Of a stretch of DNA of 21,991 bases, positions 1,647 through 21,991 are shown one piece after another. Below the pieces are notes generated by a model that ran no database searches, had not been told where the DNA came from, and saw only the letters and a program-made list of their open reading frames with translations. Every line of letters begins with the position of its first letter. Positions within the stretch are counted from its first letter, which is position 1. The stretch covers positions 1-21,991 of IMG/VR virus record IMGVR_UViG_3300035698_001713; one strand, 5' to 3'. The stretch comes from a virus. Made by a program: the position numbers and the translations under genes.

Positions 1647-1844
1647 ATGTCCAGTACAGATACCAAAACAAAGCCCGGCCTCAAAACCACTGAGTTCTGG
1701 CTGAGCCTCGCAGCGGCCATCGCGTCGTTCGTCGTCGCTCAAGGCTTTATCAGTGACGATCAGCTTAGTGCTGTCGTGGCTGTCGCCGGTCCCATTGTCG
1801 CCGCCTTCGGCTATAGTATTAGTCGCGGCCTCGCTAAGAAGTAA
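1647..1844 (+). CDS. Two-helix holin-like membrane protein, 65 aa
   Basis: A short basic N-terminus is followed by two predicted membrane helices (about residues 17-34 and 41-58), separated by a short acidic turn (SDDQ), and a basic tail ending GLAKK. Small phage proteins with a 'KTTEFWL' entry into the first helix and a 'GYSISRGLAK' end are common and are usually annotated as membrane or holin-like proteins. The size, two helices and charged tail fit a class II holin, which would oligomerise in the inner membrane to trigger lysis. A strong AAAGGAG lies 7 nt before the ATG. A lipoprotein gene follows at once, which also suits a lysis group. No endolysin is visible in this window, so the holin role is inferred; a structural membrane protein is the alternative. 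Confidence 0.65.
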   Translation: MSSTDTKTKPGLKTTEFWLSLAAAIASFVVAQGFISDDQLSAVVAVAGPIVAAFGYSISRGLAKK

Positions 1845-1887
1845 GCCGCGTGTGCTTACAGTCACACCACCCCCGCCGGAGAACCCT

Positions 1888-2208
1888 ATGAAACGCTTCG
1901 CCCTCACCGCACTCGCTGCTGCACTCGGCCTATTGGTCGTGCTGTCTGTAGCCGGGTGCAACGCCAACCCCCGCGTCGAGTTCGCTAACGCACAGGACAC
2001 GTACAACGCTGTCGTGTCTCAGCTTATCGAGAACCGGGACAAGTTCGATGACTGGGAAGGGGACGTGCTGCCGGCTATCAAGGCCGGCGACGCTGCCCTC
2101 GATCAGTATGACCTGCTGACACAGGCCGGCCTCCCCGCGGACAGTGCCAAAGATACGTTCCGGCAAGTCCTCGTCCTACTCTCTACGTTGCTCGAACAGG
2201 TCGAGTAA
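1888..2208 (+). CDS. Small lipoprotein, 106 aa
   Basis: The start is set at the ATG at 1888 with GGAGAA 4-9 nt upstream. From there the protein opens with a clean lipoprotein signal: Met-Lys-Arg, a hydrophobic core, and a lipobox ending VAGC with the lipidated cysteine at residue 24. The +2 residue is Asn, so the inner-membrane retention signal (Asp) is absent. A longer reading frame opens upstream at 1753 but overlaps the membrane-protein gene and lacks a signal. The mature part (about 82 residues) is helical, acidic and Cys-free, with no C-terminal membrane helix, so it is not a one-component spanin. Next to a holin-like gene it could be an outer-membrane spanin-type or superinfection-exclusion lipoprotein. 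No partner inner-membrane spanin was found. Confidence 0.7.
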   Translation: MKRFALTALAAALGLLVVLSVAGCNANPRVEFANAQDTYNAVVSQLIENRDKFDDWEGDVLPAIKAGDAALDQYDLLTQAGLPADSAKDTFRQVLVLLSTLLEQVE

Positions 2209-3572: not shown

Positions 3573-6500
3573 TTAAAATCCTGTGTTCTTTCTAATGTAC
3601 GTCCCGACGCCTTCGGGATACCATTCTTCCATCGGTGAGTAGTCGCCGGCTTCGCGGATCGTCTTGCGACGTTTCTTCTCCGTGGCCCATGCCTCCCACT
3701 TCGATTCCATCTCAGCGTTATCGATACGCCACGGCCGGTTACCCGCTAATGCCAACAAGGCAAGAGCCAGCTTGCTCTCAGAGTTTTCAGCCTTCATCGC
3801 TTCCGCCACGTCTTTGAACGCAAGCGGGTACATGCGGGAAGCCGTGGCCCCGATGGGCTCGAACGGTTTGCCAAGGTAGTCGGCCCCGGTGCCCGTATCG
3901 ACCGTGTATGAGGCTACAGGTGATAGCTTACCACGGACCTTGCGAGCAACCAAGTCGAATGCGTCGCCCTTGCCCCAACCTGCGTAGCGGATGTCCTGTA
4001 CCTCGCCAGCCGGGGTGACCCGCGTGCCTGTAATCAAACGGGACCAGAACGCGACTTCCCCGCCTAGTTGCCCGGACGGGTCGAAGTTATACTTGTGGCC
4101 GTCCTCGTCGGTCCAAGACATTCGCAAGAAGCCGCTCGACCGGGGGTCTAGTTCCGCCTCCCCGCCGAACAATTCCCATAGGCCGATCAGGATCCCAAGG
4201 GCACCGAGGAAGCGAGCGTACTCTTTGGCAACGACCGCCGTCGCCCGCTTGTCGCCCTTCATGGCGGCACGGATCAGGGGTGCTCCGACAACCAATTCGA
4301 TCTTGCTTGACCAGTTGCGTGCTGAGAAGAACAGGATGCTGAGCAAGCCGGATGCGTTGTTGAGCTTAGAACCCTTGGGCCCCAACGAACCCCGGCCTGT
4401 GGCAGTGTTCACATAGGAAGCGTAGAGCGATGCTCGTTCATCCGTAATGATGCCGCCGTCCTTTTCGACGAGGGCCGCAAAGGAGTTGTACCGAAGCGTG
4501 TTCAGGAACGTGGTGTACGCCCGAGTCGAACCCCGCAACGCGGTGCCAAGGACGGGCACACGTTCGAGCAAGTCTGATCGGAACTGTTCCTCACGTTCGT
4601 TTAGGTTGCCCCGCCACGACGTGATCTCTCCACCTTGGCGGACGAACTGTGCATAGTGCCGCCCATTCATGATCGCATCAAGTTGTTGCTGGGCCGACAC
4701 TTCGCTCACATAGGACCTAAGCATACCGGGCACTGCTCGTGCCGTATCGACTGGGTGAGCTAATGCGTTCCACGCACCTTGGATACCAATCATCGATACG
4801 TCCATGGAGGCCATCAGTGCCCGGGGGATGCCGAGGTAGTTCGCTGTCCGCTGCCACGGTGTGTGGGGGACAAGGGCAGCTTGCCACTCAGCGATCTTCG
4901 CACGCAGGATGTTACGTCGAGCTTCGAGTTCGGCCAACCGTTCAGACGCCTTGCGTTGTGACTTGGGCGGATCTTGGAACTGACCCGTCCGAAGCTGCTG
5001 CTCAAGGTTCGCGATGTCGCGTAACAGAGAGAGTTCTTGTCGTCGGTCACGGAGGCGATCACGAAGATAAGTCAGAGCGTCACCGCCCTGATCAGTCTTC
5101 ATGTCGTCGTACTTGCCGCTCTCGATTTGAGCCTCGGTCTCCGCGATCTGCTTCTGCAAGTCACGCTCGCTCCGCATACTCGACCGCTTCTCTTCCAGCA
5201 TGGCCAGTACAGAGTCGGTCGTCTTCTTTCCGTTGGGCCGGCGAGTTGTCCACTCTCCAGTCTCAAGCTCGTCGAGGAGTTGCCCGATTTCGTTGCGAGC
5301 CTTAGCCTTGAGTTTGAGATCCCGTTTAAACAGCCCGAGCAGGGACACGGTCTTCTTCTTCGTCTCCGTACCCTGTTGTAACAGATAGCCGTACGTGTTG
5401 TCCTCGATCATCACGTCTTGCGTCTTGATATTAGTGCCGGGGGCAAGAGGCACAACAGCCTTCGTGGCGTCGAGGATCGACTGGTACGACCTGTTGTGGG
5501 CCGGATGCTTCGCCCGGTTCAACGCGACTTGAGCGAGGTAGTGCGGATCAGCAGGATCTAGCTCGGCGAGTTCGGCGTCGAGTTCTGCTGGGGTCTTTGC
5601 TTTCCTACCATCAGGCTGCTTCTTACGCTTAGCTTTGCTGGCGTCTTTAGTGATCTTATCCTTCGCATTCTTACGCTCGGTATCCTTCTCCTGCTTGCGT
5701 GCATCCTCTTCGGACTTACGGTGTTTACGTTCCAAGCTCTCAAGCTCGCTACGCTCCTTGGGAGTGAGGGGAGAGCCCTTGCGTGCCTTAGCTTCGTTGA
5801 CCAACGACGCGAGGGTCCAGTCCTTGTGGATCGCCATCTTACGAGCGACGAGGGCTCGGCCAGCTTCAGCACCCGCGGCCTTATCAAGGGCGTGCGTGAT
5901 GATGTCGATGCTCTCCTCAATCTCGTTACGGGTCGCTGCGAGCGTTTTAATGTCCGAGTCAGATTCAGCCTTTTCGATCAGACTGGTGAGCTTCGTGTGC
6001 TGGTCGAATAGTGATCGCAGCTTGAGCACGATGCCCGCGTTCTCTACGGGTGTGATCACGCGGGGCTTGTCCAATAGATCGCGGGCCATGGCCTCGGCAC
6101 GATCAGGGATGCCTTCCGCGATCGCTAGCTCACGCCAGCTTTCAAAGGTCTGGGCATCGTGGTCTTCTAGGGTACGAAGATCAAGTTCGCGACGGATCGC
6201 TCGGGTCTCTTCCTGCTTACCGGACAACCCTTCGCCGTCCGCGAGCTTCTCGGTGAGGCTGCGAGTGTCTTCGACTTGAGCTTGTTTGACAGCCGGAGCG
6301 GTCGGAGTCTCGCTGATCTTGGACATGGCCTCGGCCCGGCTGGTGACTTCACCGCGTGCGACCTTGCCGGCAAGTTTCGCCTCTGTAGAAAGATTGTCCG
6401 CACGAGCATACGCATCGGAAAATGATTCGCCGGGTTGCACCGAGGTTACGCCAATGCTAAGGCCTGTTGTAACTCCGGGGACGATCTCTTTACGGCCGAC

Positions 6501-8327
6501 ACGCTCCTGCACGCGGGTGACCAAGTCATTCATCTCTTGCTCGGTCATCGGACCAGTAGGGATGATGGCGAACTCATCACCGCCCTGACGGTAACCTTTA
6601 GCGGCCCCGCCCGATTCTTCTCGGATGATATCGGACCACTCCCGCATGACTGCGTCTGCACCTTCGTGGCCCCACGCTTCGTTCATCACCTTCAGGTTGT
6701 CGGCGTCCACGAAGGCGAATGGTTGTGGCGTGTCGGTAGCAGCGGCGTCAAACTCGATCTCTTGTGCCCGCGTGTCCAGTGCTCGCTTGTTGCCGAGCCC
6801 GGTCAGCGGGTCCGTATTCATCTCTGTGCGTAGGGACTCGACGGCCTCAATAGCTTTCTCAGTCTCACCCCGTCTGATCAGGTCCTCGATCTCGGCTCGG
6901 TTGTCGGCTCGCTCAGGATCGCGACGCTCTTCGCGTTTAAACGTCGGAGCCTCTGGCACATCCTGTCCGACTGGAGCAGGGGCTTCAGTGGGTGCTACCG
7001 TCACATCGTTGGGGCCATCGGCTGCTGCTTCAGTCTCAGGAGCCGGAGGCTGCGTGAGTGGGGTTTGAGGCTCGACTTCTGGCTTGGGTCCAGTGGCCTG
7101 CTCTACGTCCTGTACGGCCGTCTCCTGCTGAGTCGGTGCTGCGTCCTGTGGGGCCGCTGCGGGTGACGTAGGAGATGGGGGGGTCTGTGTACCCTCACGG
7201 GCGAACTTCTGCTGGGCGAGCCCTGCGGCCTTGCTGCCCACCTTACGTCCGCCCTCAGCTAAGCCCATGGTCATCAGGGTAGTGAGGCTCGTCTCGGCGA
7301 TCATGCCGGGGATGTCAGCCGCGTTAAGCTCGTTGACGCCTGCGAGGTCGTCAGCGACGGCACTGGCGAGGGTGATGATGTTCTCTTCGCCGAGTTCGGC
7401 TAGGGTCTGGATACCCACTTGCTTCAGGGCCCCACGAAGACCTTGCTTGGCGGCTGCTCCCGCTGGCGTGCGTTCGAGACCACCAAGGCCTAGACGCTGG
7501 AACACGGCGGTGACGGTGCCTTCGATAGCACCTTGGGTCATCATGTAGTTACCTAGCTCCGGCCCTTCGAGACCAGCCTCCCGGCCGGTGAGTTCCGCAT
7601 CCTGCACAGCCTTAGATACGAAGCCGCCGATGACACCTACGCCACCTGTAGCGGCGAACGTCAACAGGTCCATAACGGAACGAACGGCTCCTTCGGCGGA
7701 GTCTTCGATCATCGACGTACCAAGGTTGCGTCGGCCCTCACTAAGCTCTTTGTCGATTCCTGTGTAGACTCCAGCAGCGTCTTCTGTCACACCGAGGGCG
7801 TCGGTCACTTGCCCGCCGAGAGCCATAGTAGACATGGTAGACCCAGCCAGCCCCGTCAATGGCGTGCGGAGAGCCCGGGGTACTCGACTGAGGTTATCTT
7901 GGACGAGTTCGCCTTGTGTGGGTACCCGCTGCCCGCCGATGTCTCGGAGCGACTGCTCTAGGTTGTTCTCACGAGCCGCATCGATCAGGCGGTTAGCTCC
8001 GGGTCGTAGTGAGACGGACGAAGCCGCGGCAGTTTCTTGCTGGGGGGACAGCGTGGGTAGTTGGGCTCGGCCACCTTGGGTATCGGTTTGGTTGTACTCG
8101 CTGAAGTCGAACTGCGTGCCGGGCATGTTGCGAGCAAGCTCAAGCATACGAGGATCGACGTCACCGCCCGCAGTAGGGGCAGTGAAGTTCTGTGGCACGC
8201 TGGGCACGGTCTGCGTACTCGTCATTCGCTGCTTGATGCGAGAGATGACCTCCGACCGGGTTGCACCGGCGGGGCCGTCGATCGAGTAGTTCTTCCCGTC
8301 AGGGCCTTTGATCGTGTATACAGGCAT
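3573..8327 (-). CDS. Giant polyvalent/internal virion-type protein with GGDEF domain, 1584 aa
   Basis: Multidomain protein. It opens with a short MPVYTIKGPDGKNY motif (1-35) typical of large phage virion and polyvalent proteins. Residues 150-375 are Gly/Ala-rich hydrophobic helices. Residues 378-462 are a Pro/Ala/Gln linker. A GGDEF domain fills about 505-658. Residues 690-1150 are helical and coiled, including a very charged stretch at 855-910. Residues 1150-1510 match a conserved C-terminal region of phage large polyvalent proteins (around GIPRALMASMDVS, RGSTRAY, NTATGRG, LFFSARN, DPRSSGF). That region is common in giant short-tailed-phage proteins thought to be carried in the particle and ejected with DNA, and the place after the tail genes agrees. 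Start: AAGGAAGGG before the ATG on the upstream stop. Virion location is inferred; domain calls are strong. Confidence 0.85.
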   Translation of the reverse strand: MPVYTIKGPDGKNYSIDGPAGATRSEVISRIKQRMTSTQTVPSVPQNFTAPTAGGDVDPRMLELARNMPGTQFDFSEYNQTDTQGGRAQLPTLSPQQETAAASSVSLRPGANRLIDAARENNLEQSLRDIGGQRVPTQGELVQDNLSRVPRALRTPLTGLAGSTMSTMALGGQVTDALGVTEDAAGVYTGIDKELSEGRRNLGTSMIEDSAEGAVRSVMDLLTFAATGGVGVIGGFVSKAVQDAELTGREAGLEGPELGNYMMTQGAIEGTVTAVFQRLGLGGLERTPAGAAAKQGLRGALKQVGIQTLAELGEENIITLASAVADDLAGVNELNAADIPGMIAETSLTTLMTMGLAEGGRKVGSKAAGLAQQKFAREGTQTPPSPTSPAAAPQDAAPTQQETAVQDVEQATGPKPEVEPQTPLTQPPAPETEAAADGPNDVTVAPTEAPAPVGQDVPEAPTFKREERRDPERADNRAEIEDLIRRGETEKAIEAVESLRTEMNTDPLTGLGNKRALDTRAQEIEFDAAATDTPQPFAFVDADNLKVMNEAWGHEGADAVMREWSDIIREESGGAAKGYRQGGDEFAIIPTGPMTEQEMNDLVTRVQERVGRKEIVPGVTTGLSIGVTSVQPGESFSDAYARADNLSTEAKLAGKVARGEVTSRAEAMSKISETPTAPAVKQAQVEDTRSLTEKLADGEGLSGKQEETRAIRRELDLRTLEDHDAQTFESWRELAIAEGIPDRAEAMARDLLDKPRVITPVENAGIVLKLRSLFDQHTKLTSLIEKAESDSDIKTLAATRNEIEESIDIITHALDKAAGAEAGRALVARKMAIHKDWTLASLVNEAKARKGSPLTPKERSELESLERKHRKSEEDARKQEKDTERKNAKDKITKDASKAKRKKQPDGRKAKTPAELDAELAELDPADPHYLAQVALNRAKHPAHNRSYQSILDATKAVVPLAPGTNIKTQDVMIEDNTYGYLLQQGTETKKKTVSLLGLFKRDLKLKAKARNEIGQLLDELETGEWTTRRPNGKKTTDSVLAMLEEKRSSMRSERDLQKQIAETEAQIESGKYDDMKTDQGGDALTYLRDRLRDRRQELSLLRDIANLEQQLRTGQFQDPPKSQRKASERLAELEARRNILRAKIAEWQAALVPHTPWQRTANYLGIPRALMASMDVSMIGIQGAWNALAHPVDTARAVPGMLRSYVSEVSAQQQLDAIMNGRHYAQFVRQGGEITSWRGNLNEREEQFRSDLLERVPVLGTALRGSTRAYTTFLNTLRYNSFAALVEKDGGIITDERASLYASYVNTATGRGSLGPKGSKLNNASGLLSILFFSARNWSSKIELVVGAPLIRAAMKGDKRATAVVAKEYARFLGALGILIGLWELFGGEAELDPRSSGFLRMSWTDEDGHKYNFDPSGQLGGEVAFWSRLITGTRVTPAGEVQDIRYAGWGKGDAFDLVARKVRGKLSPVASYTVDTGTGADYLGKPFEPIGATASRMYPLAFKDVAEAMKAENSESKLALALLALAGNRPWRIDNAEMESKWEAWATEKKRRKTIREAGDYSPMEEWYPEGVGTYIRKNTGF
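5324..5331 (-). repeat. GTTTAAAC palindrome, copy 4
   Basis: Exact copy in the giant gene (Leu-Phe-Lys-Arg); the trailing G of the extended motif is on the minus strand. Confidence 0.8.
6354..6815 (-). other. GGDEF (diguanylate cyclase) domain, residues 505-658 of the giant protein
   Basis: Aligned by eye to PleD-type cyclases, key positions are present. DPLTGLGNKR (506-515) opens the domain. D541 in DADNLK is a metal ligand. N549 and D558 (in GHEGAD) are the guanine-binding Asn and Asp. GGDEF itself is at 582-586. SIGVT is at 624-628. The end ADNLSTEAKLAGK (643-655) keeps the phosphate-binding Lys (K651), with Lys for the usual Arg (K655). The residues where an RxxD inhibitory site would sit (573-576) are GGAA, so product inhibition should be absent. 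A helical lead-in (478-503) precedes the domain, as in bacterial cyclases. Predicted activity: two GTP to c-di-GMP, requiring dimerisation. Confidence 0.9.
6935..6942 (-). repeat. GTTTAAAC palindrome, copy 5
   Basis: Exact copy in the giant gene, just before the GGDEF region (Thr-Phe-Lys-Arg); extends to the palindrome CGTTTAAACG. Confidence 0.8.
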
Positions 8328-8338
8328 GGGTCCCTTCC

Positions 8339-9352
8339 TTATTGAACAGTAACGTCGCTACCCCAGCCGTCGTTAGCGGGAGCAGGTTGGTTCGTCGGTC
8401 GATTGCTGTATGGATCAGGTCGGGACTGGTCGCCGCCGCGGATGAGTTGGTCCCACGCCATCGTTGATCGTCGTCGCTCCTGCTCCAACGATTTCAGTTG
8501 GGTATATGCGTTCACCGCATCTTCACTGACAGGCCGACCGAAGTCGTCGGCCAACTGAGTAGGTGGCATGTCTGGGTCAAGCCCGGTGGCAGTGACGCGA
8601 GCCCTCGCAGCTTCGAGTGCTGGTTCCAGTTCGTCGAGCTTAAAGCGAATCTGACGAATCCGTTCTTGCTCACGATCCCGTTGGCTCAAACCGGAACCGC
8701 GAGACTCCGCCGTCGCCTCTGACAGAAGACCCTCGAACTGGTTCGCGGGAAGCCCTGTCTCAATGGCAAACCGAGTCGCTGCTGCTACCTGCTGTTGCTT
8801 CTCTGGAGACAGCCCGACGGACCGCTGCTGAGCGTACTCTGCGTATGGGTGCTGCTGCTGTGGAAGTGTGGCAGGAGCAGCGAAGTTGCTACGAACAGTT
8901 TGCCCGGTGTTCAAGTCCGTGGGCCGAGTATCAGACGTGATACCATATTGGCCCTCATCAGTGGAGAGCATCCCCATGCCCGTGCCACCAGTGTTGCGGA
9001 ACGTCTGCACAGGTGCCTGCTGCTGTTGGTTGATCGGATGCTGGGAGTTGGCAGCGGTGGGAACGAACCCACCCCCCTGATCTTGGCTCCAGTATTCTTG
9101 GTTGCGGAACTGGGTCACGCCCGTTCGTTGAGAAGGTGCGGCCGCAGGACGTCGCGTGTTGCGGAATGCGTTCTGCATCGAGCGGGAGTTGGACGCGGCA
9201 CGAGCCCGGCGATTAGCATAGGCTTGAGCCAGTTGTTGCTGGTCACGCTGTGCAGCGATGTCGCCACGTCGGTCCTGATACGACTGCATCCCTCCTTGAG
9301 CTACGGCTGCAAGGAGGGGGACGTCGTTACTATGATTGATGACAATGGGCAT
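8339..9352 (-). CDS. Gln-rich putative virion protein, 337 aa
   Basis: Not assigned to a family. The N-terminal 35 residues are helical, then comes a long low-complexity region rich in Gln, Asn, Arg and Pro (about 35-180) with runs such as QQQQ. A helical domain follows (about 180-300), with REQERIRQIRFKLDELEPALEAARARV suggesting a coiled coil. The tail is Pro/Asn/Gln-rich. There is no membrane segment. It sits between two small helical virion genes and the giant protein, where short-tailed phages encode internal or ejection proteins. A virion-internal role is thus likely by position only. AAGGAAG precedes the ATG and overlaps the upstream stop. Confidence 0.6.
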   Translation of the reverse strand: MPIVINHSNDVPLLAAVAQGGMQSYQDRRGDIAAQRDQQQLAQAYANRRARAASNSRSMQNAFRNTRRPAAAPSQRTGVTQFRNQEYWSQDQGGGFVPTAANSQHPINQQQQAPVQTFRNTGGTGMGMLSTDEGQYGITSDTRPTDLNTGQTVRSNFAAPATLPQQQHPYAEYAQQRSVGLSPEKQQQVAAATRFAIETGLPANQFEGLLSEATAESRGSGLSQRDREQERIRQIRFKLDELEPALEAARARVTATGLDPDMPPTQLADDFGRPVSEDAVNAYTQLKSLEQERRRSTMAWDQLIRGGDQSRPDPYSNRPTNQPAPANDGWGSDVTVQ

Positions 9353-9361
9353 GGGTCTTCC

Positions 9362-10051
9362 TTATCGAGTAAATGTTCGGACGGCCGTTCGCCCGGAGCT
9401 ACCCGAGCGGGACACGGGGCTCGGTGCGTTGCTCATGAAGTTACCGCGAGCCTGCGTAAACTTGCCCCCGCCAACACTGCTACCGGGGCCAAGAACCACC
9501 TTCCGCTTCTTGAGGCTGTCGTAGTACGCCGGGGTCTTGCGGCCCCCGCTTGTCGGGGCGTCTCCGTTGAACGCACCTTTGTTGGCCGCGGCACTTAGCA
9601 GCGATCCATACTGGGCCGTGTCTGGTCCAATATCATACCTTGATTCGATGGCGTTGCCAAGCATCTCAGTGGTGCCGATCTCATTGGTGAGACCAGCTTG
9701 CGTGTTGTTGATGGACTGCATCGCGGCTACTTCATCAGCGGCCTGCTGCATCAGTGCGAGGTCAGACTGGATGCCCCCGCCGGCACCCGCAGCTACAGAC
9801 CCACCAAGCCCGCGAGCTTGGAGATCAGCCTTGGCTTTGGTCGTCTGTTCGTCGGCCTTGGTAGCGGCCTTCTGCTTCTTGCTGGTAAGGTTGGCCTCGA
9901 TCTCTTGGGCCATCTCCGTGTTGCCTGTACGTGCAGCTTCACGGGCCGCAGTGAGCAACGAGATAAGCTCCTCGTATCGAGCTTCGTTCCCAGCGTTGGC
10001 GTCGTCTCGGCCTTGTTGGTATTTCTGAATGATGTCGTCGAAGATGCTCAT
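9362..10051 (-). CDS. Helical putative virion protein, paralogue of its neighbour, 229 aa
   Basis: Start chosen at the ATG at 10051 with AAGGAG 4 nt upstream, rather than an ATG 24 nt earlier that overlaps the preceding gene. The N-terminal 90 residues form charged helices (FDDIIQKYQQGRDDANAGNEARYEEL), then an Ala/Gly-rich middle, then GPDTAQYGSLLSAAA and a Gly/Ser/Arg-rich tail. It shares two landmarks in the same order with the next gene upstream: the N-terminal QQ-DxAN-ARY helix and a GPD-Y-SL-AAA motif. The pair probably arose by duplication. The lack of a signal peptide and the position after the tail genes suggest a virion-internal or tail-associated protein. Function unknown. Confidence 0.65.
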   Translation of the reverse strand: MSIFDDIIQKYQQGRDDANAGNEARYEELISLLTAAREAARTGNTEMAQEIEANLTSKKQKAATKADEQTTKAKADLQARGLGGSVAAGAGGGIQSDLALMQQAADEVAAMQSINNTQAGLTNEIGTTEMLGNAIESRYDIGPDTAQYGSLLSAAANKGAFNGDAPTSGGRKTPAYYDSLKKRKVVLGPGSSVGGGKFTQARGNFMSNAPSPVSRSGSSGRTAVRTFTR

Positions 10052-10059
10052 GGTGCTCC

Positions 10060-10656
10060 TTAGTATACTTTCCACTTACCATTTACAAGTTTATATTGCC
10101 GGGGTGTGCCGTCTGGGTTCTTGCCTTGCAGCAACATCTGCTGGTCGAACGAGAGTCCGCCGCTACCCGCACCACCTTCTGCCGCTGCGGTGATCAGTGA
10201 TGCGTAGGTGCCAAGGTCTGGGCCTTCGTTGCTCATGTTGGCGATCGCGTCGCCCTTAACCCCGGCGAGGTTGATATTGGAGTTGATCTGTTGCTGCTGG
10301 ATCGCGTTGCGTTGGTTCGCGAGGTTGGTGTCCACATCCTGCTCGGCGAAGCCTGCTTGAGTAGCCGCCTCACGTTGAGCCGAGGGCCGCATCGTCGTGT
10401 TGCTTAGGCCGGAACTGATCAAGCTCTGATCGATGTTCGCGTTCTCTTGCGTCAGCCCTCGCTGAATCTTGGTCTTCTCCAGCCCACCGAGTTGTGTCTG
10501 CTTCGCAAGCATATCTGCGTAGGCCGTGTCGGAAGATTGTTGAAGTCCGCCAAGCTCAGTAGTGAGTTGGTTATAGCGGGAGGCGTTCGCAGAGTTGGCT
10601 GAGTCAACCGACTGCTGGAAGTGTGCCAGAATGTTTTGGTAATCTACTGCTGCCAT
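10060..10656 (-). CDS. Helical Gln/Asn-rich putative virion protein, 198 aa
   Basis: AGGAG precedes the ATG by 5 nt and overlaps the stop region of the upstream gene. The protein is mostly helical and rich in Gln, Asn and Ala. It begins with a helix like FQQSVDSANSANASRYNQL and has NEGPDLGTYASLITAAA near residues 143-159. The end has a short beta-hairpin-like RQYKLVNGKWKVY. It is a likely tandem paralogue of the gene that follows it. There is no recognised domain, membrane segment or signal. By position between the fibre-like and giant proteins it may be an internal or tail-associated structural protein. Confidence 0.65.
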   Translation of the reverse strand: MAAVDYQNILAHFQQSVDSANSANASRYNQLTTELGGLQQSSDTAYADMLAKQTQLGGLEKTKIQRGLTQENANIDQSLISSGLSNTTMRPSAQREAATQAGFAEQDVDTNLANQRNAIQQQQINSNINLAGVKGDAIANMSNEGPDLGTYASLITAAAEGGAGSGGLSFDQQMLLQGKNPDGTPRQYKLVNGKWKVY

Positions 10657-15599: not shown

Positions 15600-16718
15600 T
15601 TACGCAGTGAGCACGTTGTGCAGGACGAAACCTGCGGTGCGGCGGTTGACGCACAGGTTGTTGTGCGAACCGTCGAGGAAGACCGTGAAGGTCGTGTGCT
15701 GGCCGCGATCGACCATGGGCTCGCCCTCTTCCATCCAGTAGCCGTCTTGGACGACAGGCTGGAGCTTAGTCCAGTCCACGCAGTAGAGCGGGTTGGGGGA
15801 GTTGACCGTACCCGAGCCGCCGGTGACGGAGAAGCCGTCCAGTTGCGGGACGTACTTGACCGGGATGCGGTTGAACATGATCTCGCCGTCGAAGTCGTGG
15901 TAGAGACTCTTGTTAGCGAGGTCTTTCGGTGCCGTGTTGTCGTCACGCTTGTCAGCGAGGTCGATCAACTCGGTCATCAGGTCGTCGTTGGCGTACATCT
16001 TGACCGGCGAGCCGACCTTGTCGTTGCCGGGCGAATCGACGAAGGGTGCAGGGCGGAAGCGGGTTCGGCGGATGGCCGAGCGGAGCTTACGGAGGAACGT
16101 GTTATCCACGTTCACGTAGGAGTCCGCGTAGTTACGCCACTTCGACTCGGTAGCTGCGTCGAGGCCGGCACAGATCGTGCCAGTGGTGCCGCCTTGGTAG
16201 CGGATCGTCTTACCGTTGAAGCCCGCGGTGGTCGAGCCATCGTCAAGCATGTTCAGGTAGTAAGGGATGCCGTAAGGATACAGCGTGTCGGTGGCCGACT
16301 GGGGAGTCTGCCAACCGCGTTCCTCGATCAGTTCCGCGATGTCCCACATGCGTTCAGTACGCCGGGAGCGGAGCAGGTTGATGAACCCCTTCTCGGAGTT
16401 TTTGTTGCGGAGAATTTCCACAACGTCCCACGAGTAGTCGGTGCCGATCTGCGTCCAAGGGACGGTGATCGTCTTCTGGTTGTTGTCAACCTGCGGGGTG
16501 TCCGTGTCATACAGACGACGGTAGCGAGCCCGACCGTTGCGGTTGAGCATGACGTTACGTTGAATGCTCGTACCGCCGTCGATCTGGCGACGATGCTGTT
16601 GGTAGATGCGGCAGAACTCGTAGTCCTGTGAGTCCCACATGACCTCGAACTCACCCTTGGGCAAGTCTTTCAGTGTGGTTTGAATGAGGTCCGATAGTGC
16701 TGAGTTGTTTACGCCCAT
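15600..16718 (-). CDS. Major capsid protein, 372 aa
   Basis: Size, position after the scaffold and before a decoration-type gene, and sequence style all fit an HK97-fold major capsid protein of short-tailed phages. The N-terminal part has helical and arm-like segments (SQDYEFCRIYQQHRRQIDGG, with RNVMLNRNGRARYRR). Later parts contain the beta-rich P- and A-domain-like stretches (KYVPQLDGFSVTGGSG, PLYCVDWTKLQPVVQDG). The C-terminus is FVLHNVLTA. Arg-rich elements would help subunit contacts around DNA. AAGGAG lies 7 nt before the ATG. A promoter upstream of the scaffold gene and hairpins after the stop suggest strong, separately tuned expression. The protein makes the icosahedral shell. Confidence 0.85.
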   Translation of the reverse strand: MGVNNSALSDLIQTTLKDLPKGEFEVMWDSQDYEFCRIYQQHRRQIDGGTSIQRNVMLNRNGRARYRRLYDTDTPQVDNNQKTITVPWTQIGTDYSWDVVEILRNKNSEKGFINLLRSRRTERMWDIAELIEERGWQTPQSATDTLYPYGIPYYLNMLDDGSTTAGFNGKTIRYQGGTTGTICAGLDAATESKWRNYADSYVNVDNTFLRKLRSAIRRTRFRPAPFVDSPGNDKVGSPVKMYANDDLMTELIDLADKRDDNTAPKDLANKSLYHDFDGEIMFNRIPVKYVPQLDGFSVTGGSGTVNSPNPLYCVDWTKLQPVVQDGYWMEEGEPMVDRGQHTTFTVFLDGSHNNLCVNRRTAGFVLHNVLTA

Positions 16719-16760: not shown

Positions 16761-17894
16761 TTATCCGAAGACTTGCTTGAGCCGTGTACGTGTCCGAGCC
16801 TGAAGCTCTTTCTCGTTGCTTGGCTCTCCCTTGCGGGACAGATCCGCTTGGCCGGTTGCCGTTCGTTGGCTTGGCCGGGCGGTGATGCCGCGATTACGCT
16901 TCTTGGCCTCCTGCTTGATTTTGCGTCGAACGCTCGCTTCCGAGACTTCGACCGAGAGGGCACCGTGTGCCCGTGCGAGTGCGTCCTGAACCGAGACGGT
17001 TCGGCCTTGGAACTGAGCACCCGATACAAGGGCATCAGCCATCTCCAAGACTTCGACCCTAGCACGTTCCTGCTCGGGGGTCAAAGGGGCACCTGCGGGA
17101 CCGTAGTGGTCCCCGAACGCCTTGAGTGCCGGATCAGCAAAGAAGCTCTCGACTTGGCGGGAAAGTGACTCGCTCGCCTGTTGTTCGAGACTCTGCTGAG
17201 CCTGCTGCTGCTGAGACATCATCTGGTTAAGGACGGCTGCCTGAGCGTTCATCTGCTGAGCGAAGGTGTCGATGAGTTCATCGTCACCAAACTTCTCCCG
17301 CAGTACCTCAACACTGACCGGCTCGATCTTCGAGCTTGGGCCCGGGTTTGCCGGCGTCGTCTGGTTCTGGTGCGGCCCGGAGGCGGCAGGAGTTCCAGAG
17401 GTCTGCGACGGCTGGCCAAGGGATTTGGCCATACGTCCGAGTTCCGCCATCCGCTGTGTCTCGGTGTTACGCTTCTCGTGTTGGCGAGCGGCGTAATCCG
17501 AGAACCTCTCGGCACCCATGTTCTTGTAGAGATCAGCGATCTCTTCACGGGTGTGGTTGGCGAGCAAGGACCGTTCGTGGGCCGTTGGGATGGTAGGGGC
17601 GTCGTCATCAACAGCATCCTGCTCGTCGATGTCGTCATCCGCTGATCCCGCGTCCTCGGGGCCTTGCTCCTCGTCTTCTTCGTTGTCTGCTTCGTCCTCT
17701 TCGGAGAAGCGGTAGTCGTCGTTATCGTCTTGGGGGTCGTCTTGGTAGTCGTCCTCGTCCTCGGTGCCGAACGCTGCGGCGAAGCCGCTACTGATTTTGT
17801 CCGCGAGGGCGGCCTCATCGAACGCATCCTCGGGTTTTGGGGCGTCCGCAGGGGGGGACAGTGAGATACTTCCGTCTCGTGTGGGGGTGGGCAT
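16761..17894 (-). CDS. Capsid scaffolding protein, 377 aa
   Basis: Typical scaffold composition: the first 110 residues are extremely acidic (long Asp/Glu runs such as DEDDYQDDPQDDND). The middle is Pro/Gln/Ser-rich. Residues about 220-260 form a Gln-rich coiled coil (NQMMSQQQQAQQSLEQQASESL). The C-terminal third is helical and basic, ending near LQARTRTRLKQVFG, as expected for the part that binds the inner capsid surface. It lies directly before the major capsid gene and has its own promoter. GGAG precedes the ATG by 9 nt. It should guide procapsid assembly and be removed before packaging; no protease domain is visible. Confidence 0.8.
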   Translation of the reverse strand: MPTPTRDGSISLSPPADAPKPEDAFDEAALADKISSGFAAAFGTEDEDDYQDDPQDDNDDYRFSEEDEADNEEDEEQGPEDAGSADDDIDEQDAVDDDAPTIPTAHERSLLANHTREEIADLYKNMGAERFSDYAARQHEKRNTETQRMAELGRMAKSLGQPSQTSGTPAASGPHQNQTTPANPGPSSKIEPVSVEVLREKFGDDELIDTFAQQMNAQAAVLNQMMSQQQQAQQSLEQQASESLSRQVESFFADPALKAFGDHYGPAGAPLTPEQERARVEVLEMADALVSGAQFQGRTVSVQDALARAHGALSVEVSEASVRRKIKQEAKKRNRGITARPSQRTATGQADLSRKGEPSNEKELQARTRTRLKQVFG

Positions 17895-17987: not shown

Positions 17988-18147
17988 GTTATTTTTCAGA
18001 TTTTCCTCCTATTTTCTTTCCACGCACCCCGTAGCGGCCAGTGCGGAGAGCTTTTGTTTGCGGGATTTGGCGATCGGGACGCCATATAGCTCCGATTTGG
18101 GGTTCATTTCTACGTAAACGTCGGGAGCTTGGCGTTTAAACGCCTTG
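17971..18147 (+). repeat. 14-bp direct repeat GTTTAAACGCCTTG
   Basis: The same 14 bases occur at 17971-17984, inside the capsid promoter, and at 18134-18147, inside the zinc-ribbon gene, 163 bp apart. The second copy is part of a perfect 14-bp palindrome GGCGTTTAAACGCC (18131-18144). The pair could bind one regulator at two sites. Confidence 0.85.
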
Positions 18148-18350
18148 ATCTCCTCGTCATCCGTCAGGCCGATCGAGTACATCTCGATCGGCTTGTGAAA
18201 CTCCTTCATATCAGTGTGCGGGAGGGACACTTGGCGGTCGTACGTGTCCGATCCGCACGCGGGGCAGGCCGTAAGATGGTCTTCCCGCATGTGTTGGAAC
18301 TCGTCTTCCTCGTGATTGCAGGTCTGACATTGATACGGGTATAGTGGCAT
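18009..18350 (-). CDS. FmdB-type zinc-ribbon protein, 113 aa
   Basis: The N-terminus MPLYPYQCQTCNHEEDEFQHM is followed by CPACG, giving two CxxC knuckles (Cys 8/11 and 29/32) of an FmdB-like zinc ribbon, probably binding one Zn. The rest is charged and helical, with a C-terminal region (SELYGVPIAKSRKQKLSALAATGCVERK) like that of zinc-ribbon proteins often found between portal and scaffold genes in phages. The role is unknown; transcription control or assembly help have both been suggested for the family. AGGAG overlaps the portal stop. One GTTTAAAC copy lies within the gene and codes for Phe-Lys-Arg. Confidence 0.75.
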   Translation of the reverse strand: MPLYPYQCQTCNHEEDEFQHMREDHLTACPACGSDTYDRQVSLPHTDMKEFHKPIEMYSIGLTDDEEIKAFKRQAPDVYVEMNPKSELYGVPIAKSRKQKLSALAATGCVERK

Positions 18351-18359
18351 AGGATCTCC

Positions 18360-20234
18360 TTACACGCCCATCGATTTAAGGACAGACTGCATGTCGTTGG
18401 CTCCCGACTGGGCGTCAGATCGGTCGCGTGTGTCTTGGCTCGGGTTGCTGGCTACGGTGCCGGGCTGGCCATTCTGAAGAATCTGTGACAGAGGATTCGC
18501 TTGGTTCGGCATTAGCTGACCCTGCGACCCCTCCATCTGCGGGCCACGCATCGCGACCATCGCGGTACGCATCTGGAACTCAGGATCGAACCACACTTCG
18601 TCCATCCACTTGATGCCGCGGTCTTTGGCCATACGGGTGACGAAGGTCTTCACGTCGAACGGGATGCCCATCATCATCGCGGCTTGGCCGGCCTGCATCG
18701 CAGCGGGCATAATCTTCACAGCGAAGTCCATGGCCTGTGCGAAGCGGGTGGTGCTGTCTTGTCGGCCCATGGACTCGACCTCGACGTCGAAGTGGAAGTC
18801 CATCCAGTCGCCGCTGCGGGCTTCGGGCGTGAGGATGACCTGAATCTCTTCCATCCGAGCGGGCTGCTGCATCACGGGGCCGAGGGGGCTCTGACTGAAC
18901 TGAGCAGGGAACGTGAATCGCTTCACAAGCGGAACCTCGATCAGCGGATCAGTGTGCATGTACCACGCTCGCTTGCGGCCTTCGGAAGCGGCCATCTGGT
19001 ACACGAGGTCTTTCATATCTTCAAGGCCGACGTTCGCGTTTGCGGCGAGGAGCTTGGCCTCCGTCGCGGAGTTGGCGTCGAACCGCTGGCCGGCGAGAGC
19101 CTGTGGGTTCGCGGCCATCTGGTTGAACCAGCCCTGAAGCTGTGCCAGCATGATCTCGTTCTTCTGGTTCTGCCCGCCGAAGCTCAGGACACGAACACCA
19201 TCCGGGTCGTCCGTGGCAACGGAGCCCCCATCAGGTTCGTCACGCAGGGCTTCAGCGTCGTCCGCTGCGGCACGTCGATAGGCCACAACGTCTTTCTGAC
19301 GCTCGGCTTGGTCGATGATCTTCTTGGCCATACGGTTGCCGAGTACGTGAAGATCGTTCCACACGCCGACAAGGGGGATGGGCAGCGGGTTGTCGGGCAC
19401 TGGCGGTGTTAGCGACAGGAACGTGTACGGGCCTTCGTCCGGCCCGTAGTATTCGTCCTCACGCAGGAAGCGATCGAACGTGACTTCTGTGCCGCCGGGC
19501 ACCGTAACAAGCTGGTTCGCACCCGGAATCCAAATCTCCGCGATCTCTACTTCGTCGTATGCGTCGTGGTCTCGGTTCGCGTCTCGCTTCTTCTGCGACA
19601 GCAGGTGGGACGTCCGATCAGACGATACGGCGTCGCCCACGGTGGGAAGTTGCTCGACCAGTTCGTTGTCGTAGCGGCCCGATTCCAGCAGCGAAGCCCG
19701 GGACACGATGCTACGATCACCCAGCCACTTCGCGTCTTTGAACAGGTGCTCCCGCGACGTAGGATCAACGAGGAGGTTGTCGAAGCTCACGCACCCCGTA
19801 TAGATCTCTCCAATATCAACGCGATCGTACTCATCGAATGTGTAGACCGAGTCGCTTTCGGCGATACCCGTCTTCAAGATGCCGAGCGTGAAGATCGCAT
19901 CGACCAACACTTGCCGGTACGTGGACCGGATGTCGATCTGCTTATCGTGAAAAGCGAGAGCCTCGCCCAGTAGCTCGGCGTACTGCCGGGACTGGAGGAA
20001 GTTGCTCGACACGTTGTGCGTCGGAAAGTTCATCACGATGTTGGGTACGAGCACCCGGATCGCGTTGAAGATCATGTTCAGCGATTCCTCGCCGATGTTC
20101 CCCTTCTCCTTATCGTAGTAGGGGCCGGTGTAGTTCCGCAGGAACATCATTCGCGACATGCGGAAGTTCTTCAGCCGGTCGCTACCACGTTTGACGGACT
20201 CTTGCAAGTCTCGGGGGGTCAATATATTTGGCAT
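18360..20234 (-). CDS. Portal protein, 624 aa
   Basis: Size, position directly after the terminase, and sequence match portal (head-tail connector) proteins of short-tailed phages. The N-terminus has the helical FRMSRMMFLRNYTGPYY and NMIFNAIRVLVPNIVMNFP, typical of the family start. A beta-rich wing/clip follows (DRVDIGEIYTGCVSFDNLLVDP, a near-invariant type of motif in these portals). A long helical stem region follows, with MAKKIIDQAERQKDVVAYRR. The C-terminal 100 residues are Met/Gln/Ala-rich, as in barrel or crown extensions. Twelve copies would form the DNA channel at one vertex and dock the terminase. AAGGAG sits on the terminase stop, 5 nt before the ATG. Confidence 0.85.
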   Translation of the reverse strand: MPNILTPRDLQESVKRGSDRLKNFRMSRMMFLRNYTGPYYDKEKGNIGEESLNMIFNAIRVLVPNIVMNFPTHNVSSNFLQSRQYAELLGEALAFHDKQIDIRSTYRQVLVDAIFTLGILKTGIAESDSVYTFDEYDRVDIGEIYTGCVSFDNLLVDPTSREHLFKDAKWLGDRSIVSRASLLESGRYDNELVEQLPTVGDAVSSDRTSHLLSQKKRDANRDHDAYDEVEIAEIWIPGANQLVTVPGGTEVTFDRFLREDEYYGPDEGPYTFLSLTPPVPDNPLPIPLVGVWNDLHVLGNRMAKKIIDQAERQKDVVAYRRAAADDAEALRDEPDGGSVATDDPDGVRVLSFGGQNQKNEIMLAQLQGWFNQMAANPQALAGQRFDANSATEAKLLAANANVGLEDMKDLVYQMAASEGRKRAWYMHTDPLIEVPLVKRFTFPAQFSQSPLGPVMQQPARMEEIQVILTPEARSGDWMDFHFDVEVESMGRQDSTTRFAQAMDFAVKIMPAAMQAGQAAMMMGIPFDVKTFVTRMAKDRGIKWMDEVWFDPEFQMRTAMVAMRGPQMEGSQGQLMPNQANPLSQILQNGQPGTVASNPSQDTRDRSDAQSGANDMQSVLKSMGV

Positions 20235-20243
20235 GGGTTCTCC

Positions 20244-21991
20244 TTACGCGGCTCGCCAGTCGAAGCTGGTCTTTAGGGCACGTCGTTTTTTCGATTTCTT
20301 CCAAGTCTTCATACGCCCGGCGAACGATCGCTCGGGAGCCAAGGGTCCGGCCACTCGTTTGCCGCCGCTTCGTCCGGCCCCGATCAGGCAGAGCATGTCC
20401 GCGATGACGCGGTCACCGTGAGTGGCCCGTGCGGTGCTCGACTCTTCCAACAACTCAGAGGGGCCGATGCCCCCGCTGTCATAGTGGACGTACGTCAGCG
20501 TCTCGTCGAGGCTCTCGACGCTGTGGTTGATGATGCCCCCATGGGCATACGCACGACGCAACAGGCCGAGGCCTTCGGCTTTCTTCTCTCGACTGGACCG
20601 CCAACCGTACCGCTTGCCGACCTTCTCGGCAACGGTGCCGCTGCTTCGGTCGAAGTAGATGTTGGGGTATTGGTACTTGCGTGCCACCATGTTACCGAAG
20701 TCGAAGCCGGGGTCCCCGTTGTTCTCCCAGATCAGCAGTGCTCGGTTCTTGCCGCCGACCCAGAGGCACGCGGCACAGGCGACCTTCGCGAGTTCGTAGG
20801 GCGGTGTGTTGGCACAGGCGAACTCGGCAATCTTCTCCTTGGTCTCGTTGCACAGGATCGAAATGACGGAGTTCGAGGCACCCATGCCCTTGCCGATATC
20901 CACGCCGACCGAGTAGGTCTTGGATTGATCGGGGCGGGCCTTGGTGAGAGAGCACCAGATTCGCCAGCGGCCATTAGGCGTATAGTGAATCTTCGAGAGG
21001 TCTTCCTTCTGCAAGTAGCCGGGGATCGCAGAGTCCGGTACCTCCGAGTCGAAGTTGATCGTCATCTTGCGGACGCGGTTCTGATACTTCGGCCCAGCGA
21101 ACATCAGCCGGTGCTCTTCGATGATCATCGCCTCAAAGAACGTGTCGCCCGAGCCGACGTGGTCCATGTCCACTTCGATCGCGAGTTCTTTGGGGGAGCG
21201 GGCTTCGGCTTCGTTGTTATACCACGGCGAGCGAATCTTCCAGCGGCCAAGCTCGTCTTGTTCGAGGTAGCGGTTGGCCCCCTTTTCTGGATGCTCCCAC
21301 CACGCCAGCACGAACACAGGGATCGTACCGCTGAGCCGCCACTTAGAGTACGCAGTACCCGCACCGTTAGGAGTGGAGCAGGGTAGGCGGCACGCGGACA
21401 CGTCGCGGGTCGATCGCTTGATGTCTTCGCCGTGTTCCATCTTCGACATCTCGTCGAGGAAGATCGCGTCGCGACGGCCGGACGTACCGGCGTTCTTGTT
21501 GGCCGACTCGCCGTCGATACGGGAGTTGTTGTGGCGGTTGACCATGTGCAGACGCTTGCGTTCCACGGTCGGTCGCATCCACTCAGGCAGGAAGCTGACG
21601 ATGTAGTCGAGCTTACCGAACAGCGTGGCGGGGTCCGCCATGGTGCCGCCGCTCAACTGATCGACGTTGTCTTCTTTGTTGGACACGACGAGGAACGAGC
21701 GGTCGCCCTCAAAGATGAACTTGTGCATCAGCACGGTAAGGTGATCCCACGTCGCACCCATGTCCCGGGACTTATCAGTGAGGAGGTCCTCGCCGACGTC
21801 GATCGCGTGCTCGATCCGCAGCATGTGGCGGTCTTGAATCTCCCACGTCACCATCGGCGTGTGCTTGGTCTCGACCTGCTTGACGCCACCGACCTCGTCG
21901 GGCTGGAAGTATCGGAGCGTCCACACGAAGGCATTCACCCAGAACAGAACCGAGTTCCCGCACGCAGTATACAGGTCTTGCTGAAGCTGGG
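20244..21991 (-). CDS. Terminase large subunit, 5' end outside window
   Basis: DNA-packaging motor with both expected domains. ATPase: a Walker A variant LLTDKSRDMGATW (near 21750-21787), Walker B plus catalytic Glu in DAIFLDEM (near 21448-21470), and the coupling-like CSTPNGAGTAY. Nuclease (RNase H fold): acidic residues in VGVDIGKG (near 20900), LLIWENNGDPG (near 20720) and THGDRVIADML (near 20400). The frame stays open to the right edge. The GTG at 21938 is internal, because the upstream residues (LYTACGNSVLFWVNAFVW) read like the usual terminase N-terminus. A basic C-terminus (KTWKKSKKRRA) follows. The partner small subunit is not visible here. Confidence 0.9.
   Translation of the reverse strand, partial: QLQQDLYTACGNSVLFWVNAFVWTLRYFQPDEVGGVKQVETKHTPMVTWEIQDRHMLRIEHAIDVGEDLLTDKSRDMGATWDHLTVLMHKFIFEGDRSFLVVSNKEDNVDQLSGGTMADPATLFGKLDYIVSFLPEWMRPTVERKRLHMVNRHNNSRIDGESANKNAGTSGRRDAIFLDEMSKMEHGEDIKRSTRDVSACRLPCSTPNGAGTAYSKWRLSGTIPVFVLAWWEHPEKGANRYLEQDELGRWKIRSPWYNNEAEARSPKELAIEVDMDHVGSGDTFFEAMIIEEHRLMFAGPKYQNRVRKMTINFDSEVPDSAIPGYLQKEDLSKIHYTPNGRWRIWCSLTKARPDQSKTYSVGVDIGKGMGASNSVISILCNETKEKIAEFACANTPPYELAKVACAACLWVGGKNRALLIWENNGDPGFDFGNMVARKYQYPNIYFDRSSGTVAEKVGKRYGWRSSREKKAEGLGLLRRAYAHGGIINHSVESLDETLTYVHYDSGGIGPSELLEESSTARATHGDRVIADMLCLIGAGRSGGKRVAGPLAPERSFAGRMKTWKKSKKRRALKTSFDWRAA

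Follow-up and report, generated by a model that had tools for sequence, protein, structure and literature searches.

A predicted diguanylate cyclase domain within a giant late-gene protein of a metagenome-derived phage

Does a phage that encodes a GGDEF domain inside a giant protein, next to its virion genes, carry a working diguanylate cyclase, and could that enzyme reach the host together with the phage genome? The window analysed here is the whole of a 21,991-base virus record, a metagenome-derived contig that is probably a fragment. The domain had been noticed in a reading of the sequence alone, as part of a 1584-aa phage protein of polyvalent, possibly ejected type. The gene is found at the downstream end of a late (virion) run, made up as follows:

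20244-21938, minus strand: terminase large subunit gene (phrog_5989, E 5.1e-8), its 5' end near the window edge
18360-20234, minus strand: portal gene (SU10 portal, PF23899, E 2.1e-8), which served as bait for relatives
16761-17894, minus strand: likely scaffold, from gene order and size
15600-16718, minus strand: likely major capsid, from gene order and size, with one weak phrog match (E 0.047)
8339-10656, minus strand: three Gln/Ala-rich genes (198, 237 and 337 aa) directly upstream of the giant gene
3573-8327, minus strand: gene of the 1584-aa protein with the GGDEF domain, an open ORF

Further head and tail genes lie on this strand between the putative capsid gene and the three small genes. 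The terminase gene precedes the portal gene, and the giant gene lies 10 kb past the portal on the same strand, so that the proximity to late virion genes described for phage polyvalent proteins is also seen here. Its ATG is preceded by a ribosome-site-like stretch (AAGGAAGGG), and one short ORF follows it. The position of the three small genes suggests that they encode internal or ejection proteins. The only family match found for them was phrog_25608 (E 0.038) on the 237-aa protein, and neither these three proteins nor the C-terminus of the 1584-aa protein matched known ejection proteins. Searches of PDB sequences with the portal and two tail/head proteins of the window returned nothing credible.

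Other genes of the window were also recorded. An FmdB-type zinc ribbon protein (18009-18350, minus strand; TIGR02605, E 8e-15) is encoded between portal and scaffold, and the relative G017 has a comparable short Cys-rich ORF after its portal gene. On the plus strand, a 5'-truncated gene at 1-1379 strongly matches phrog_1745, "DNA transfer protein" (E 1.8e-163); its product has a metallophosphoesterase-like core and presumably resembles phage T5 A1. An ORF at 1753-2208 (plus strand), among genes of the opposite strand, carries a lipoprotein-like signal (MKRFALTALAAALGLLVVLSVAGCNA).

The elements of the domain and the stretch just ahead of it are:

6819-6917, minus strand: two predicted helices, residues 471-503 (AlphaFold2), placed like the linker helix of WspR and DgcB
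6363-6818, minus strand: GGDEF (diguanylate cyclase) domain, residues 504-655 (Pfam PF00990; AlphaFold2)
6705-6707, minus strand: D541, the metal-binding aspartate, shared by each of the ten phage domains in the alignment
6570-6584, minus strand: GGDEF motif, residues 582-586 (G582-G583-D584-E585-F586), from the sequence

The sequence-only reading had placed the domain at 6354-6815 (residues 505-658). Pfam PF00990 matched residues 504-655 of the protein with E = 4e-20 (72.6 bits, with a cut-off of 23.8), and a profile search at the DNA level located the same stop-free stretch at 6363-6818 (E = 8.3e-24). With an E-value of 4e-20 a chance match is excluded, and the assignment as a real GGDEF domain, made from the sequence, is practically certain. 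The metal, guanine and catalytic residues said to be kept (D541, N549, D558, GGDEF 582-586 and K651) are all present; together with K546 they give the D, K, N, D, GG[DE]EF and K/R that characterize PF00990, and R580 and K655 are found as well. Matches of the domain to PDB sequences were nearly all named cyclase or GGDEF proteins (SiaD, DgcB, WspR, PleD). The window domain is probably catalytically competent. The feedback site (I-site) RxxD, expected five residues before GGDEF at -9 to -6, is missing as that reading had claimed: the window domain has GGAA there, and nine other phage GGDEF domains likewise have no RxxD at the canonical spacing. To call the enzyme "unrestrained" on this basis is an overreach, since diguanylate cyclases also need two GGDEF domains brought together; loss of the I-site removes product inhibition only.

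Structure prediction agrees with this assignment. An AlphaFold2 model of residues 470-690, built on an alignment of 37 sequences from the window and the fetched loci, has a diguanylate-cyclase fold with a mean pLDDT of 93.7 and a pTM of 0.86. With this model, Foldseek retrieved diguanylate cyclases and GGDEF proteins at E-values down to 1.5e-11; 97 PDB chains were found at E <= 0.001, and the best 50 of the 97 are all cyclase or GGDEF entries. Superposition on WspR (3i5b/3i5a) by VIA-align gave a Z of 21.1 at 2.0-2.3 A, with 2.0 A over 154 residues for the GGDEF domain. With the longer WspR chains the match reaches into the linker helix ahead of the domain, and against 3i5a it starts at model residue 15 (aa 484). 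Such helices pair in WspR and DgcB, and the window helices at residues 471-503 are in a like position. Prediction had been proposed as a check for a broken active site, and no breakage is seen at the level of fold and residues, from which we infer that the active-site geometry of the model is probably intact. Among the top structural matches in the BFVD library, phage proteins with a diguanylate cyclase or GGDEF annotation formed the majority, so a GGDEF domain in a virus is in itself nothing new.

GGDEF-fold enzymes and their relatives can use ATP or mixed substrates. The domain could thus make a different cyclic or linear nucleotide, whose role would be to feed or mislead cyclic-nucleotide defence and not to serve c-di-GMP signalling. 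Its phage-type sequence group, with variants at unusual positions (DAANLK/DADNLK, RQGGDEF), would allow this, as would the product diversity of Panoptes OptS and Cas10 within the GGDEF-type fold (PMC12657218). We hold such a product to be improbable, however, because the domain retains Asn549 and Asp558, which specify guanine and point to GTP as substrate and c-di-GMP as product.

Neither the GGDEF region nor the C-terminus, each used as a single-sequence query, found a match in IMG/VR; relatives were retrieved with the portal as query. A broader portal scan of IMG/VR led to 21 longer records, chosen by length and with no GGDEF criterion. A giant ORF of at least 1100 aa occupies the slot in 14 of these 21 records, five with GGDEF and nine without; the fraction is rough, as some records end before the giant gene and ORFs were examined in 17 of the 21. 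All five GGDEF domains (5/21) lie inside the giant ORF, of 1440-1786 aa, 10-12 kb past the portal. In the window and in G012, G017, G019, G021, G035 and G037, portal and giant gene share a strand, and the giant gene is found 10.0-12.7 kb further downstream. With 9/14 slot proteins lacking it, GGDEF is an optional part of these proteins, and Pfam revealed no convincing domain in the nine that lack it. Scans based on GGDEF or on the frame added G021, L156 and L051, which belong to the clade or carry its frame, and G020, G031, L137 and L138 from other phages; domains retrieved by a GGDEF pattern were excluded as evidence for motif conservation. In the phages collection, the portal query found no relative except one weak partial match.

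The five domains obtained without GGDEF bias all keep the metal Asp, the Lys, the Asn and the exact GGDEF, and four of the five keep the guanine Asp (Asn in G035, D558N). Altered residues also occur elsewhere: L137 carries K546G, and a conserved His is missing in L137, L138, G031, G038 and G049. Strict catalysis is therefore perhaps not required everywhere. FimX and LapD are examples of degenerate GGDEF receptors, and the changes in these few relatives would suit a domain that is no longer a cyclase and serves as a GTP- or nucleotide-binding module, for example a host nucleotide sensor or a structural spacer. For the window we consider this unlikely, given the 5/5 conservation of metal Asp, Asn and GGDEF and a domain that has every named residue; a needed spacer, moreover, is at odds with relatives in which the domain has been swapped out.

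The survey of related phages for the same fusion, which the sequence-only reading had suggested, found the domain not only in the same slot but exchanged as a cassette. The phages L156 and G012 are 96.9-98.5% identical over most of the DNA that they have in common; a stretch immediately ahead of the slot is at 84%. Nucleotides 2082-2833 of L156 (752 nt) encode GGDEF, where G012 has 497 unrelated nucleotides (L155 7899-8395), and the reading frame is open in both versions. In these phages, then, the frame does not require the GGDEF unit, which is acquired or dropped as a whole. The alternative cargo of G012, about 165 codons, is unrelated in sequence and has no Pfam match. In L006 and L007, the closest relatives of the window (portal 97%), the giant gene is cut off by the end of the sequence; the swap is observed in relatives, and for the window itself we infer it. 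Near-identical pairs with and without the cassette provide a natural comparison of what the domain is worth to the phage. They also suggest that effectors are exchanged in the middle of the giant proteins, where a search for other cargoes would be worthwhile.

The remainder of the 1584-aa protein comprises:

7236-8075, minus strand: N-terminal helical region with a hydrophobic Gly-rich stretch, residues 85-364, common to the same-slot protein of G019
6918-7202, minus strand: Pro/Ala/Glu-rich linker, residues 376-470, from the N-terminal region to the payload
4014-4832, minus strand: C-terminal region, residues 1166-1438, common to the 1582-aa protein of phage MW202497

The N-terminal region (residues 85-364) has low-identity matches in other clade members; its AlphaFold2 model is poor (pLDDT 47) and unfit for structure searches. 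The C-terminus had been described as typical of large polyvalent proteins, and this description was not confirmed. A Pfam scan of it at E up to 10 gave zero matches, LPD38 (PF18857) included. By hhalign it was unrelated to an alignment including the LPD38-bearing G020 (with a window-side profile of two sequences), and the three C-terminal types that bear GGDEF (window/MW202497, G017 and L137) were mutually unrelated at the depth of these shallow profiles. Such mosaicism fits an exchanged payload. Separate Pfam scans of the N- and C-terminal parts found no second domain, leaving GGDEF as the sole Pfam domain of the protein; the several disparate domains per polypeptide that mark polyvalent proteins are thus not seen by Pfam here. 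Relatives with additional domains are G020 (LPD38) and G031 (ddrB-ParB).

A contig derived from a metagenome might be an assembly chimera, or might record a recent chance capture of a bacterial cyclase that has no phage function. Against this, the same fusion occurs in the same slot of several independent contigs, whose GGDEF regions are only about 25-39% identical to that of the window, and the phage domains cluster apart from the sampled bacterial ones in a quick tree. The independent fusions in effect refute such an origin, which we rate as very improbable. In the tree, the smallest well-supported set with the window domain consists of nine domains of phage giant proteins and that of L051 (support 98), and the G031 domain falls outside this set. 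Most phage GGDEFs thus group apart from the sampled bacterial cyclases, in a quick tree that joins long branches and whose bacterial sequences were chosen by sequence pattern, the careful search being unfinished. L051 is filed as a Planctomycetia MAG; its contig is read as phage because it carries the portal of this clade at 49% identity and GGDEF in a 2538-aa protein.

Several of these giants have further features. The 2538-aa protein of L051 (3574-11187) seemingly includes J-domain-like and radical-SAM-like stretches, judged by eye. Proteins of L137 (6795-13553, 2253 aa; catalytic Lys lost) and L138 (6759-14912, 2718 aa) combine GGDEF with a zincin-like motif H-E-A-G-H and other regions. In L153 (5683-11025), a 1781-aa protein has GGDEF and, by eye, a ParB-like stretch, and its guanine Asp is replaced by Asn (GHEGAN). 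The phages collection also yielded many cyclases of other kinds, and two such matches were not counted. That in "Pseudomonas phage Y1" is a response regulator-GGDEF in a bacterial-looking stretch, next to an ORF resembling, by eye, a peptide chain release factor; in E. coli phage 613R3, a gene annotated DgcN lies at the edge beyond the integrase.

For the protein as a whole, we give an even chance to its being an ejection-type late protein with an exchangeable mid-protein payload site that holds a GGDEF cyclase. The N-terminal helical and C-terminal regions would form the structural frame, with the payload site between them. The protein would be packaged and enter the cell together with the DNA; two copies would pair their GGDEF domains through the preceding helices, and the paired domains would turn host GTP into c-di-GMP. 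The product would act on host effectors, which are proposed as its target because searches of eight phage records (the window and relatives) turned up neither a PilZ nor an EAL protein. Early in infection, the cell might then be shifted to a sessile, surface-polymer-rich state, or nucleotide-based defence might be disturbed.

The step on which delivery depends, presence in the virion followed by ejection, is favoured by gene context, if not strongly. An active enzyme could also stay in the cell that makes it: made late, it would raise c-di-GMP in the dying or a neighbouring cell and affect surface, biofilm or superinfection, or the giant might be a late protein outside the virion. Packaging is argued from gene position alone, and some phages encode GGDEF in a gene of its own (Yuavirus PAC9 ORF52; Bordetella phage LK3, PMC8471281), both of which speak for this possibility. 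We nevertheless consider it the less probable course, at perhaps one chance among several, because the giant size, the position at the end of the virion genes and the hydrophobic N-terminal helical region fit ejected proteins better, and because Iyer et al. 2017, in the passages on such proteins, argue for delivery (PMC5512222). That a change in c-di-GMP is the selected benefit is plausible, at slightly under even chances. The widest claim, that a phage clade reserves a site for exchangeable payloads within an ejected virion protein, with a phage-specific active cyclase lineage as one of the cargoes and c-di-GMP synthesis from genome entry, is put forward only tentatively. An active and ejected domain would amount to a second-messenger synthase delivered by the virion, and the 2017 proposal would become directly testable.

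That proposal is the nearest precedent. In its passages on polyvalent proteins, PMC5512222 reports GGDEF domains in those of phages and conjugative elements, for example Acetonema longum WP_004096050.1, places the phage proteins near virion genes and proposes delivery and cyclic-nucleotide signalling; the idea of a delivered GGDEF in a phage giant protein is thus already published as a proposal. The window protein has in common with them a GGDEF within a giant phage-encoded protein, the late/virion context and the proposed role. WP_004096050.1 has at least nine domains, whereas the window protein has GGDEF alone by Pfam and is read here as a single-cargo, slot-exchanged version of this type. 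Slot frequency, cassette swap and catalytic conservation are what the present analysis adds to those passages; prior reports are possible, as the literature covered was open-licence, and within it no paper used wording such as "phage-encoded diguanylate cyclase".

Other large enzyme-bearing phage proteins that are packaged, the N4 virion RNA polymerase and P1 DarB/DdrB, are precedents for packaging according to the same passages (PMC5512222); their enzymes differ from that of the window, the likeness is one of size and enzyme content, and no sequence relation emerged from the searches described here. c-di-GMP can matter to a phage, although at adsorption rather than after entry: infection by N4 depends on host c-di-GMP through a glycan receptor (PMC8669472). 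Lysogens of Bordetella phage LK3 over-produced biofilm (PMC8471281). Stand-alone phage GGDEF proteins (Yuavirus, the Bordetella Vojvodinavirus phages LK3 and CN1, and, in BFVD, Bacillus phages G, gp350, and SP-15) have the same fold, but each has a gene to itself (157 codons in PAC9) instead of lying within a giant late protein; those of Yuavirus match the window only weakly and in part. Finally, the bacterial cyclases of the WspR/SiaD/DgcB type share the fold, the linker helix and the catalytic residues with the window domain, which differs from them in having neither a receiver or sensory domain nor an I-site, in its DADNLK and RQGGDEF variants, and in being embedded in a phage protein.
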